A stretch of DNA of 64,000 nucleotides. Source: Clostridiales bacterium Firm_16. GTDB taxonomy: Bacteria; Bacillota; Clostridia; Saccharofermentanales; Saccharofermentanaceae. A program made the position numbers and the translations under genes. Location: contig LVAV01000054.1 of assembly GCA_001604185.1 (NCBI GenBank), forward strand, positions 124,001 through 188,000, in the 5' to 3' direction. This document shows positions 3,859-49,031 of this stretch, piece after piece. The first letter of the stretch is position 1. Every line of letters begins with the position of its first letter. Below the pieces are notes generated by a model. The model made no database searches. It was not told the DNA's origin and worked only from the letters and a program-made list of their open reading frames with translations.

Positions 3859-4080
3859 AACCGTCCTACGCTTTTCGCGGTTTTATCAGACTGTTTCTAT
3901 GCTTGTGCAAGAACCGTCCTACGCTTTTCACGATTTTGTCAGACGGATTCTGAGTTTGAAGTGAAAACCGTCCTATGCTTTTGGCGATTCTATCAGACGG
4001 ATTCTAAGTTTGAAGTAAAAACCGTCCTACGTTTTTGCCGATTTTGTCAGACGATTTCTAAGTTTGAAGTAAAACAGTTG
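3859..4080. repeat. tandem repeat array A, four units of 53-54 bases
   Basis: Units begin with CCGTCCTACG (or CCGTCCTATG) at 3861, 3914, 3968 and 4022, so the period is 53, 54 and 54. Each unit continues with CTTTT, then GATTTTGTCAGACGG or a close variant, and the last three end with GTTTGAAGT. CCGTC at the start and GACGG in the middle are complementary. The same family recurs at 7930-8280. The 54-base period keeps a frame open (repeated VLRF-x-RFCQTDS peptide), but there is no ribosome site, so coding is doubtful. Confidence 0.75.
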
Positions 4081-7687: not shown

Positions 7688-8351
7688 TCCGATTTTCCTC
7701 CCATGATACAATAACTATTTGACATTTTACCACGGATCGTCAAATAACGCAAAAATCAGGATTTCCAGAGGATATCTAAGGCTTGAAAACAGGCTCTTTC
7801 TGCGAATGCTTGTCGCCCAAAAGGGCTTCCCCGCGCCGCTTTTTCACGGCGTGTGAGATGGCCCGGGTGGAGCAGGTGGAGCGGATGGCCTGGCTGGCGC
7901 GGATGCACCGGATGAACCAGGCTACGACGGATATCACGAAAAACGCAGATTCGTCCTACGTTTTCGGCGATTTTATCAGACAGTTTCATGGTTGATTTTA
8001 TCAGACAGTTTCATGGTTTAATGCAGATCCGTCCTACAGCATGGGGCTCGTGGTACGACGAATTTCTCGAAAAACGCAGATTCGTCCTACGTTTTCGGCG
8101 ATTTTATCAGACAGTTTCATGGTTTAATGGATTTTATCAGACAGTTTCATGGTTTAATGCAGATCCGTCCTACAGCATGGGGCTCGTGGTAGGACAGATC
8201 TCTCGAAAAACACAGATTCGTCCTACGTTTTCGGCGATTTTATCGGACGGTTTCATTGTTTAGTGCAAATCCGTCCTACGCGCCGCACGCTTAGGACGCA
8301 GACTCGCTCACTCAGGACGCAGACTTGCGCACCCAGGACGCAGAACCGTGC
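7688..8351. other. gene-poor stretch between pyruvate kinase and the 3D-protein gene
   Basis: No protein gene is supported. Bases 7930-8280 are a compound tandem repeat and 8292-8365 a 21-base repeat (listed separately). The part next to the TTG start (7688-7780) is AT-rich and probably holds the promoter of the 3D/RNase J operon, but no clear -35/-10 pair was found. Confidence 0.6.
7930..8280. repeat. tandem repeat array B, compound units of 131-136 bases
   Basis: The unit begins CGAAAAACGCAGATTCGTCC at 7937, 8068 and 8204 (the last with CACAG for CGCAG). Each continues TACGTTTTCGGCGATTTTAT, then CAGACAGTTTCATGGTT, and units one and two repeat GATTTTATCAGACAG, then read GTCCTACAGCATGGGGCTCG. 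The last unit is cut short. CGAAAAACG and CGTTTTCG inside a unit can pair. The core GTCCTACG-TTTT-N7-TTTTATCAGAC is the same as in array A (3859-4080), so both belong to one family. Confidence 0.75.
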
Positions 8352-32170: not shown

Positions 32171-32317
32171 GTTAGCGCCCGCTAACTATCTACACGGGAA
32201 TTATCTTTCTTTTCAGGACGATTTTCAATAGTTCGCGTTGCCGAAATCACCGATGATGACGGATTTCGTGATATTGAACAAAAAGTTAGCCGATGCTAAC
32301 GGTTAGCATTGGCTAAT
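32171..32317 (-). promoter_or_regulatory. three-copy operator of the feo operon (DtxR/IdeR-like)
   Basis: GTTAGC-N4-GCTAAC occurs at 32171-32186, at 32285-32300 and, with GCTAAT, at 32302-32317. The last two are one base apart and together form a 31-base near-perfect palindrome (32286-32316). TTAG...CTAA half-sites with this spacing recall DtxR/IdeR-family metal repressor sites, which suits iron control of feo genes. This assignment is inference; no regulator gene is in the window. Confidence 0.65.
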
Positions 32318-32402: not shown

Positions 32403-32642
32403 TTCAGTCGTGAATGCGGGTTTGCCTGATTTCGACTGACATCTGGGCCCCCTGATTCAGTCGCAGATGCTGGTTGGCTCGATTTCGACTGAAGTCCGAG
32501 CGATATGTGTCAGTCGAGAACCCGAAATTATCCATTTTCGACTGAAAGTGGTATGCAATTCTTCAGTCGCGCAAGCATGTTTCCCCGAATTCGACTGACA
32601 TTCGCTCGTGATCACCTCCGAATCTCATCACTCTTTCAGTCG
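32403..32642. repeat. array of inverted repeats with an exact 53-base period
   Basis: TCAGTCG stands at 32404, 32457, 32510, 32563 and 32636; CGACTGA at 32433, 32486, 32539 and 32592. Steps are exactly 53 bases for four units, then 73. Each unit is TCAGTCG-N22-CGACTGA, so it can form a hairpin with a 7-base stem, usually extended by T/A pairs. The sequences between the arms are poorly conserved. Confidence 0.8.
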
Positions 32643-32894
32643 AATATTGTGATTGAGCAGATAATGACTGATAAGCCCTTGCTTTTTTGTTGGAATCATA
32701 GTTAAATGAATCTATTCTTCATCTTGAAGCTTTTGTTATTTTCCCAATTAAATGATGTATTGATTTCGTTGAAGTATCGGACAGCCGCTTGAATAAAGCA
32801 TGTCCTCGCTTGGCTTGTATTCCAGATCGCACGAAGCAGCGAACTTCGGCTAGATTTCAAGATGCAGAAAATACATCATTTGAGAGGAAGAACT

Positions 32895-33698
32895 ATGGAA
32901 GCATTGATTCAGCAACTAGAGCAGAGAGCAAACACATTGAAGAAAGTGATCGCGAAGATCGAGCAGGATCTGAGTCTAATGCCGGCCGGGCGATTGCGAC
33001 TTTCAAAGAAAAAAGAATTTGCTATGTATTATCAGATCGTCGAGAATAGAACTGGAGAAGAAAGGAAGTACCTCAACTCAGACAGCAAGCGGCTTATCCA
33101 GCAACTAGGCCAGAAGGATTATCTGAAGGAGCTTCTGGATGTCTCACGCCGTGAATTGAAATATATTGATGATCTTCTGCGTAGCAAGTCATTATTCAGT
33201 GCCAACCATGTATACGAGGGCCTGCACGATGCGCGCAAACGCATTGTTAATCCTCTCCTTGTCGACGACGACACGTTTGCGGAGATGTGGCAGCGCCAGC
33301 CCTACAAGCCGAACCCGGCCTACCCGGAGCATCTTATCTATGCCACCAAGCGGGGAGAGATGGTGCGTTCGAAGGTGGAGGCCATGATCGCGGATATGTA
33401 CTTTGATCTGGATATCCCGTACAAATACGACTTCCCGGTGAAGCTGTTTAACAATCAGGTGAAGTATATCGACTTCGCCCTGCTTCACAAGATCACGCGG
33501 AAACTCTATTTCCACGAGCATCTCGGCATGCTCGACAACCCCGGTTATTTCAAGGACAACATGCACAAGCTGGAACTGTATCGCCAGAGCGGGATCTACG
33601 TCGGCAAGAACCTGATCCTGACGCACGAGACAGAGGATCACCCGCTCAATTTGAACATTCTCCGCGAAAACACAAGGGAACTGTTCGGGTGTTTCTAA
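32895..33698 (+). CDS. PD-(D/E)XK nuclease-like protein, unknown
   Basis: 267 residues starting MEALIQQLEQRANTLKKVIA after GAGAGGAAG. Residues 1-100 are a coiled-coil-like helical region. From about 155 the pattern E162 (SKVEAMIADMYFDL), D193 (VKYIDFALLHK) and E208 (YFHEHLGML) fits a PD-(D/E)XK restriction-like fold, of the type with E-H-L in place of E-x-K; the ending TRELFGCF resembles related uncharacterised clostridial proteins. It should bind or cut nucleic acid, but activity is inferred only. It stands alone, between the palindromic array and the lipoprotein gene. Confidence 0.6.
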   Translation: MEALIQQLEQRANTLKKVIAKIEQDLSLMPAGRLRLSKKKEFAMYYQIVENRTGEERKYLNSDSKRLIQQLGQKDYLKELLDVSRRELKYIDDLLRSKSLFSANHVYEGLHDARKRIVNPLLVDDDTFAEMWQRQPYKPNPAYPEHLIYATKRGEMVRSKVEAMIADMYFDLDIPYKYDFPVKLFNNQVKYIDFALLHKITRKLYFHEHLGMLDNPGYFKDNMHKLELYRQSGIYVGKNLILTHETEDHPLNLNILRENTRELFGCF

Positions 33699-48053: not shown

Positions 48054-49031
48054 TTGGCAGTATTTAGAGTCAAAAAGAACGAAAACTTTACATGTATGTC
48101 GAATCATTCCCTTCGGAATCACAATCTCTCGTTGAAAGCTAAAGGCTTGCATGCGCTGATGCTGTCTCTTCCTGATGATTGGGATTACACGTTAGCGGGA
48201 CTGAATCATATTTGCAAGGAATCGATCGGTTCCATCAACGGAGCTGTTCAGGAACTGGAAAAAGAAGGATACATCGTTCGTTATCAAGATCGAGACGAAA
48301 AAGGACGAATGACTTCTTTTGTCTACACGATATTTGAAGAACCGCCGAAAAACGCTGGAAATAAAGCATCTGATCCGCATGTTGAAAAACCGCATGCGGA
48401 AAAACCGTTTACGGAAAAACCGCATGCGGAAAATCAGTCACAAGTAAATACTAATAAACAAAATACTAAAAGACAAAGTACTAAAGGACAAAGAGATGCT
48501 TACTTGCTTACTTCGCGTGCGCGTGAGATGGAACAGGCGATCGACGAACTGAGAAGCTTCATCGAAGAGAGAATTGGTCGTCCACTCTGGCATGCTGAAA
48601 TCCGGATCTGCACCGGCTGGGTGAAGAACAGCGAAGACTTGGACATGATTAGGCTGGCTGTCGAGGATAACCTCTTCCGCAAAGACAACTTTGATCTGAA
48701 GTATGTGCAGAAGACACTCGATGAGTGGAAGTCTTACGGTATCGATACACCCTTGAAAGCAAGAAATCACATTCTTGATTCTCATGTTTCAAACATTTCA
48801 ATGATGGCTGCAGAGATTGCAGAACGAAACCACAGCGACGATTTGAGAGAGAAGATCCTCATGGGAAATGAGATGACGGATCTTCAGGGAACACGTGATT
48901 ATATGATCGAGCTTTATCAGCAGAAGCGTTACGACATGCTTTTGTCGGTGGCTCATACCACATATCACAAGGATATTCTCGATTACCTCCCCGACGAGGT
49001 TCGTGAATTCATACTTAAATACTCAGTTTGA
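48054..49031 (+). CDS. HTH replication-initiator-like protein of the element
   Basis: 325 residues, TTG start behind AAGGAGGAAAATGCA. The N-terminal winged-helix part (FRVKKNENFTCMSNHSLRN, LSLKAKGLHALMLSLPDDW, INGAVQELEKEGYIVRYQ) is that of clostridial ICE and plasmid replication-initiator-type proteins. A linker rich in EKPHAEKP repeats (about 105-135) follows. The C-terminal part resembles DUF6017 (EQAIDELRSFIEERIG, then DMIRLAVEDNLF). It may start rolling or theta replication of the excised element or act as regulator; no function is proven. Confidence 0.75.
   Translation: MAVFRVKKNENFTCMSNHSLRNHNLSLKAKGLHALMLSLPDDWDYTLAGLNHICKESIGSINGAVQELEKEGYIVRYQDRDEKGRMTSFVYTIFEEPPKNAGNKASDPHVEKPHAEKPFTEKPHAENQSQVNTNKQNTKRQSTKGQRDAYLLTSRAREMEQAIDELRSFIEERIGRPLWHAEIRICTGWVKNSEDLDMIRLAVEDNLFRKDNFDLKYVQKTLDEWKSYGIDTPLKARNHILDSHVSNISMMAAEIAERNHSDDLREKILMGNEMTDLQGTRDYMIELYQQKRYDMLLSVAHTTYHKDILDYLPDEVREFILKYSV

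Follow-up and report, generated by a model that had tools for sequence, protein, structure and literature searches.

Helically phased palindrome arrays beside PD-(D/E)XK-like nuclease genes in Clostridia, probable DNA sites of the adjoining enzyme

A 64,000-nucleotide stretch of the genome of Clostridiales bacterium Firm_16 (contig C54; here called the window) carries a row of five palindromes ahead of a gene for a PD-(D/E)XK-like protein. We consider it probable that the palindromes of this array serve as double-stranded DNA sites of the adjoining nuclease, and that they are kept and spread with it as a set resembling that of REP sequences and their RAYT partners. What argues for this reading is the geometry of the arrays, their linkage in cis to one gene family, an arm sequence particular to each genome, orphan arrays that carry the same arm at unlinked places, a step quantised in helical turns, an empty site in a sister species and units shared between arrays. 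That the nuclease binds and cuts the arms and mobilises the arrays is what we infer from these patterns.

The palindromes of the window have the form TCAGTCG-N22-CGACTGA and occupy positions 32404-32671, with successive steps of 53, 53, 53 and 73 bp (Table 1). An initial annotation had placed nine arms here and all nine positions are exact. Its uniform 53-base step holds for the first three intervals but not for the last, which is two helical turns longer, and its fifth TCAGTCG, correctly located at 32636, is not a lone arm but opens a full palindrome whose right arm is degenerate. The words TCAGTCG and CGACTGA occur ten times in the window, against 12 expected by chance, and nine of the ten fall inside 239 bp. 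The arms pair fully, while the 22-nt interiors and 17-nt linkers look like mutually diverged copies. A scan of 484 kb of the same genome for at least three units with any arm returned arrays at the window site and on contigs C24, C40 and C111, the latter three having been chosen because they hold TCAGTCG palindromes. In 360 kb of contig C28 there was no array of at least three units with any arm; a looser scan gave a few single-pair matches there and nine clusters in shuffled sequence. The arrays of the window match no Rfam family. By eye, a block similar to the promoter-like element just after the array precedes the related genes at loci L057, L058, L061, L067 and L080.

Table 1. Positions of the arrays, the promoter-like block and the nuclease gene in the window
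Feature	Position	Strand	Remarks
Orphan array, arm core CGTCCTACG	3859..4074	.	54-bp step
Second orphan array, CGTCCTACG core	7923..8278	.	irregular repeat array
Palindrome 1	32404..32439	.	TCAGTCG-N22-CGACTGA
Palindrome 2	32457..32492	.	step 53
Palindrome 3	32510..32545	.	step 53
Palindrome 4	32563..32598	.	step 53
Palindrome 5	32636..32671	.	degenerate right arm (TCAGTC...GACTGA); step 73 = 7 turns, not 5
Promoter-like TTGCTT-N17-TTAAAT	32679..32707	+	just after the array; putative, from sequence
PD-(D/E)XK-like nuclease gene, cognate to the array	32895..33698	+	267 aa; in-frame upstream start also at 32862

The product of the adjoining gene belongs to no Pfam or NCBIfam family. An AlphaFold (AF2) model of its 267 residues (pLDDT 92.8, pTM 0.66) has two long N-terminal helices separated by a three-stranded sheet, followed by a PD-(D/E)XK-like core. 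Structural neighbours of the core are Bax1 (Z 8.3, rmsd 3.2 over 98 residues), TnsA (Z 7.9, rmsd 3.5 over 115 residues) and Vsr (Z 6.6, rmsd 3.8 over 103 residues), with Hjc and NGO0050 also among the fold matches (Foldseek best E 0.005); a Z near 8, taken alone, may reflect just a common arrangement. The likeness to Bax1, TnsA and Vsr lies in the nuclease core, whereas the N-terminal part differs. Residues E162, D193, E208 and K160 do not vary among 68 aligned proteins (L112, which has a stop codon, was left out), and the canonical ExK lysine is absent from its usual +2 position (E208-H-L). Judged by the modelled core fold and acidic active site, the protein is a member of the PD-(D/E)XK superfamily with putative nuclease activity. 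Its N-terminal half is less conserved than the core (majority residue 0.44-0.47 versus 0.66), which would fit a part that sets specificity. The N-terminal helices match TasH (Z 8.0 over 68 residues), a match common to prefoldin and Rad50 helices. A Pfam search with the 68 proteins (E up to 0.1, best 0.0075) had no Y1 transposase, Nop or ToxN among the best 25 of 30 families. Relatives of the nuclease are present in all 23 genomes of the genus (one to ten matches each, some partial); the gene is multicopy in rumen Clostridia, and Butyrivibrio and further Lachnospiraceae have it as well (144 relatives, of which 80 were kept). No relative was found in viral contigs.

This PD-(D/E)XK-like gene, which the initial annotation had mentioned as a neighbour, proved to be the partner of the array. 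From 130 loci, three with short matches were removed, and collapsing proteins identical over residues 30-200 reduced the remaining 127 to 87 distinct loci. At least three palindromes sharing one arm lie within 800 bp of the gene in 58 of these 87 by a free-step scan, a count that retains near-duplicates and into which near relatives enter separately; 29 have no array by this test. The same test gave 0/103 in far flanks (0/48 and 0/55) and 0/173 in shuffles. Fixed-step scans (46-60 or 50-56) miss the Butyrivibrio arrays, and the free-step scans define the counts. As a rule the arrays stand on one side of the gene, upstream in 37/87 and downstream in 22/86 loci, and the side follows clade, with four changes on the tree as against 13 when shuffled (tree labels from an older fixed-step scan). 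Apart from the nuclease, no gene family recurs at more than 10 of the 80 loci compared. Among the upstream arrays, L068, L071 and L081 have by eye a promoter-like TTGAAT-N17-TTCAAT some 30-50 bp ahead of the array, which would place these arrays in the 5' leader. By eye, too, a different homologue, L077, with C-terminal likeness only, has tandem palindromes CGTCTAT...ATAGACG upstream of the gene at a step of about 61.

The spacing of the palindromes is tied to the DNA helix. Steps in cis arrays cluster at 51-55 (129 steps), 62-64 (22), 73-75 (33) and 83-85 (8), leaving 56-61, 65-72 and 76-82 empty. Of the 167 steps up to 90 bp, 166 deviate by at most 2 bp from a multiple of 10.5, steps inside one array not being independent of each other, and vector strength is highest near 10.5 bp (phase statistics on 51 arrays, after removal of eight near-duplicates from 59). 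A further 19 steps fall between 86 and 125: twelve at 104-107, where a unit is skipped, and the rest at 96, 96, 102, 114, 114, 117 and 124. Above 90 bp the fit to multiples of 10.5 is less good (96, 102, 117, 124). In a test of 12 hand-picked lineage steps, none of 100,000 random draws did as well; the step medians of L061 (63 and 73) and L127 (85 and 74) mix two step classes. Orphan arrays of Butyrivibrio have steps of 75 and 85-86. The whole-turn spacing read from 53 bases in the initial annotation is thus firmer than that number alone could make it, since related arrays use six, seven or eight turns. A step quantised near 53, 63, 74 and 84 bp points to recognition of double-stranded DNA rather than RNA. 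Phased A-tracts, as a sign of bending, show only a small rise at 10.6 bp.

The arms are kept while the sequence between them varies, in accord with the selection on arms that had been suggested from the variable spacers of the window. In 38 arrays the outer 7-9 nt pair almost completely, after which pairing drops to 363/1300 positions (28%), versus 29% in shuffled pairs. A generic covariance model of the units was dropped, MAFFT having misaligned units with different arms.

Each nuclease locus has its own arm, and that arm recurs elsewhere in the same genome. The window arm TCAGTCG is found in orphan arrays on C24, C40 and C111. A second paralogue, on C66, has the cis arm GGGGACTAAA (GACTAAA), of which there are 18 palindromes on C6, C24, C66, C108 and C113; the arm of a third, TGATATAAGG on C113, makes 21 palindromes on C24, C40, C96 and C113. 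The C96 paralogue (L169) has by eye the core CGTCCTACG, to which the two orphan arrays of the window belong. No cis partner was found for two other arm types of this genome, TGGCATAAG on C24 and ACTTCGG on C40, and scanning gave no array at the C110 paralogue. A TCAGTCG array occurs in one of 23 genomes, its own. The initial annotation had looked to relatives for conserved arms with changing spacers; the arms change, and it is the geometry that is kept.

Other genomes repeat this pattern. In G012 the arm GATAAGATC / GATAAGAT forms 20 palindromes at seven places, one of them beside the nuclease; elsewhere GATAAGAT gives one palindrome in G007 and none in 21 of the 23 genomes. A blind scan of 400 kb of its contig C18 found five arrays, all with arm GATAAGATC and all at 345-425 kb, the gene lying at 379 kb. 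Palindromes of ATAGGAT number 38, 29, 28 and 5 in the four genomes having that cis arm, three in G001, one in G012 and none in 17 of 23. GATATAA gives nine in G006, where the cis arm is of this type, and one or two in three other genomes. Three Butyrivibrio genomes with the TACGGAT arm (TACGGATA) have 21, 28 and 3 palindromes; two genomes with nucleases from other clades have none. Counted as exact copies, palindromes per genome with a cis arm range from 3 to 38. Protein identity and arm similarity are weakly correlated (rho 0.13), a value reached in 6 of 2000 permutations.

Contamination is an unlikely source of the orphan arrays. Contigs C24 and C40 do differ in 4-mer composition, but the assembly has one aroG match, which lies on C24 and shows 72-87% likeness to near full-length copies from the genus, and three arm types on C24 match nuclease paralogues of the same assembly (contamination estimate 5.4%). 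Downstream of aroG in 22 rows of relatives there was no array of at least three units, one row being without downstream sequence, one having 197 bases and two being pieces of one gene with masked bases. In G017 and G022 isolated palindromes with arms like their own stand downstream of aroG, and this may therefore be a favoured site. We also considered solitary GATAAGATC arms as REP-like singlets: 21 copies lie outside arrays, permuted 9-mers average three and 3/300 reach 21, and among 11 hand-picked variants six have 17-44 copies and five have 3-11. Codon use may explain the excess, and we make no claim of singlets.

Comparison of near relatives, and of arrays within a genome, points to turnover. 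Sister species G014 and G012 are mostly 92-95% identical along 47 kb (one piece 85%), yet G014 is without the full-length nuclease and its array, and about 4 kb of other genes stand there, among them (G014:C33:31868-35853) a gene pair that by eye resembles alginate-acetylation genes. G014 also lacks both orphan arrays that fall in the 47-kb stretch, one with a clean junction, the other gone together with flanking sequence. At the clean junction G014 reads CTGTCAAC|AACAAAAAA where G012 reads CTGTCAAC-ACAG-array-TGA-AACAAAAAA, and no target-site duplication was seen. Gain and precise loss are equally possible, and further insertions and deletions mark the region. Among the comparisons listed, the arrays of G012 have like arms and are otherwise only about 56-75% similar, so that no recent parent of the array missing from G014 was found. 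In the Firm_16 genome the C66 cis array and a C108 orphan share 125 identical nt, linkers included, with different flanks, both lying near contig ends. Two Butyrivibrio orphan arrays, of five and four units, share their left flank (95.8% over 2360 bp, array included); their right flanks do not align. On a tolerant count the array beside the nuclease of SIG348 has six units, three exact and three degenerate; its Su6 counterpart also has six, with no nuclease within the 4.5 kb read.

These observations can be joined in one scheme. Each palindrome, with two arms of 7-9 bp that in the window start about 29 bp apart, would bind a dimer; with successive palindromes nearly whole turns apart the dimers would be aligned on one face of the DNA and able to join, in an assembly that would bridge different turn numbers in different lineages. 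Every paralogue of the nuclease would recognise an arm of its own and would coevolve with its arrays, both in cis and dispersed in trans, as a REP/RAYT-like set. Recognition in trans would explain why unlinked arrays keep one arm while interiors drift and relatives have other arms, and copying between arrays would explain the shared units. By binding and probably cutting the arms, the nuclease would be likely to drive the copying, homogenisation and spread of arrays, one route being break repair from another array; ordinary recombination is an alternative route of copying. A more specific and more tentative form of this scheme is a site-homogenising element, in which the nuclease cuts or nicks the arms, repair copies units, and arm and nuclease specificity change together genome-wide, as in a bacterial satellite with its own endonuclease, the five, six, seven or eight turns between sites being the built-in, lineage-dependent ruler of the assembly. 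The pair may be selfish, regulatory or defensive.

The best of the other explanations is that the arrays are operator clusters of a sequence-specific regulator whose fold mainly binds, the cis array serving autoregulation and the orphans controlling neighbours or folding DNA. Cooperative regulators typically use helical phasing, the window array stands directly ahead of a promoter-like block, and the 12 arrays checked are intergenic, save for short ORFs of 84-112 aa, probably not genes, over four of them and margins of 7 and 21 bases at two. However, 22 of 86 loci have the array 3' of the gene, where it would hardly repress, the catalytic-type residues are invariant, and the neighbours of orphan arrays at the 12 places have, by eye, no obvious common function. 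We regard this explanation as unlikely.

Far less probable is an RNA system in which transcripts of the arrays fold into stem-loops and bind the nuclease, like type III toxin-antitoxin systems or stem-loop TIGR arrays. Some upstream arrays are close to the start codon and probably in the 5' leader; arm mismatches in upstream arrays alone are G-T 13, A-C 5 and other 9; and the orphan units of G012 are partly symmetric inside too, pairing further inward than cis arrays (48/99 inner positions, 48%, with shuffled partners at 47%). Yet over all cis arrays (1351 arm pairs) the mismatches are G-T 22, A-C 17 and other 29, with no clear wobble excess, pairing in cis arrays ends after 7-9 nt, and arrays may precede or follow the gene or stand far from it as orphans. 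RNA would also have no obvious reason for keeping a whole-turn ruler, the Rfam search of the window arrays was negative, and neither Nop nor ToxN was among the best 25 of 30 Pfam families.

Equally improbable, in our estimate, is a defence device in which the arrays hold the nuclease inactive, as a sink or self-mark, until on release it attacks foreign DNA. The C-terminal domain does resemble the PADLOC candidate PDC-S68 (E 4.9e-25), but this is only a candidate model of 1221 positions, matched only at its end, and beyond the nuclease no gene family is shared by more than 10 of 80 loci. Passive, partnerless satellite-like repeats growing by slippage, which the differing unit numbers of relatives (five versus four) might suggest, are hardly credible, since arms match across unlinked arrays of one genome where interiors do not, the arrays are linked to one gene family and the step is quantised despite unrelated arms.

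Among known systems the nearest is that of REP, BIME and REPIN sequences with RAYT, which the cited passages describe as dispersed intergenic palindromes in alternating orientation, often clustered, with a cognate gene beside some (PMC2817692, PMC3116915). Here too palindromes beside the gene recur with the same sequence elsewhere in the genome; arm and gene go together per genome, and several families per genome and lineage-specific copies are further likenesses to what those passages report. In the same accounts the enzyme is a Y1/HUH transposase and copies exceed 100 per genome, whereas our arrays go with a PD-(D/E)XK-like core and number tens of exact copies. Multi-unit arrays with near whole-turn steps of 53, 63, 74 or 84 bp and short arms about 22 bp apart also differ from the REP/RAYT arrangement as set out there. 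The defining HUH enzyme was not among the best 25 of 30 Pfam families, and we therefore do not file the system under REP/RAYT although it seems to work alike. If our reading is true, the REP/RAYT lifestyle would have been invented a second time, independently and with a restriction-type enzyme, and helix phasing could be read directly from sequence with unusual clarity. The many natural protein-arm pairs would form a data set for the evolution of DNA-binding specificity, and the presence of the system in cultured Butyrivibrio would make binding, cutting and array turnover directly testable. Nothing on such nuclease-linked phased arrays appeared among the literature matches listed, which included no preprints and few subscription papers.

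Three other array systems can be set aside because their defining features fail here. TIGR-Tas has a tandem array up- or downstream of a nuclease-type gene, with a repeat differing between loci (PMC12045711), and a unit core near 36 nt is a further, coincidental likeness. The excerpts of that source give it a Nop protein and two 8-12 nt (9-nt) guide spacers varying by unit, whereas our arms are constant, the interiors are related diverged copies, the spacing on the DNA is quantised, and the TasH fold match is limited to coiled-coil helices. CRISPR-Cas combines cas genes with near-identical repeats around unrelated spacers; here the spacers are mutually diverged copies, and the gene-family tally over 80 loci shows no conserved partner besides the nuclease. 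For a methyltransferase partner, as in restriction-modification, the same tally covers families common to more than 10 loci, of which the nuclease is the single one. Type III toxin-antitoxin systems (ToxIN and kin) likewise have a repeat array ahead of a nuclease gene; here the fold is another, the array may be 3' of the gene, there are orphan arrays, and the phasing is that of DNA. No ToxN/CptN/TenpN-type toxin family came up in the Pfam/NCBIfam search of the window gene or among the families listed for the 68 proteins.

The multi-site array proposed in the initial annotation is borne out; the nucleoid or partition role suggested for it is not supported. The arrays are few, patchy and lineage-specific, and, unlike parS/ParB and matS/MatP sites, which lie around origin or terminus, they are absent from 360 kb of C28, a contig with a terminus-type GC-skew switch. 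The array cluster of G012 is not at a skew switch either. Nor did we see a link with the feo operators named beside the array. Between feoA and the array (32171-32315) there are several TTAGC...GCTAA palindromes, which we take to resemble feo metal-repressor operators.

Several smaller features were noted. A leader of about 200 nt (TTCTTCATCTTGAAG ... ATGATGT) runs by eye ahead of window-type nuclease genes (window 32700-32895, L057, L058, L079 and L080) and may be a regulatory RNA element; that of the window has no Rfam match. Two 15-bp tandem repeat tracts, CCGCATGCGGAAAAA and TACTAAAAGACAAAG, lie at 48375-48493 of the window. Palindromes such as ATACCCCCAGGGGGTAT occur at L229 (16380-16460), at G014:C33 (near 45700) and at L249; they stand beside a presumably CsoR-like gene, adjoining the orphan array, and are likely operators. 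Finally, the short word GTGCTTTT / AAAAGCAC seems frequent in intergenic stretches of the genus (e.g. L071, L244, L249) and is possibly another dispersed element.
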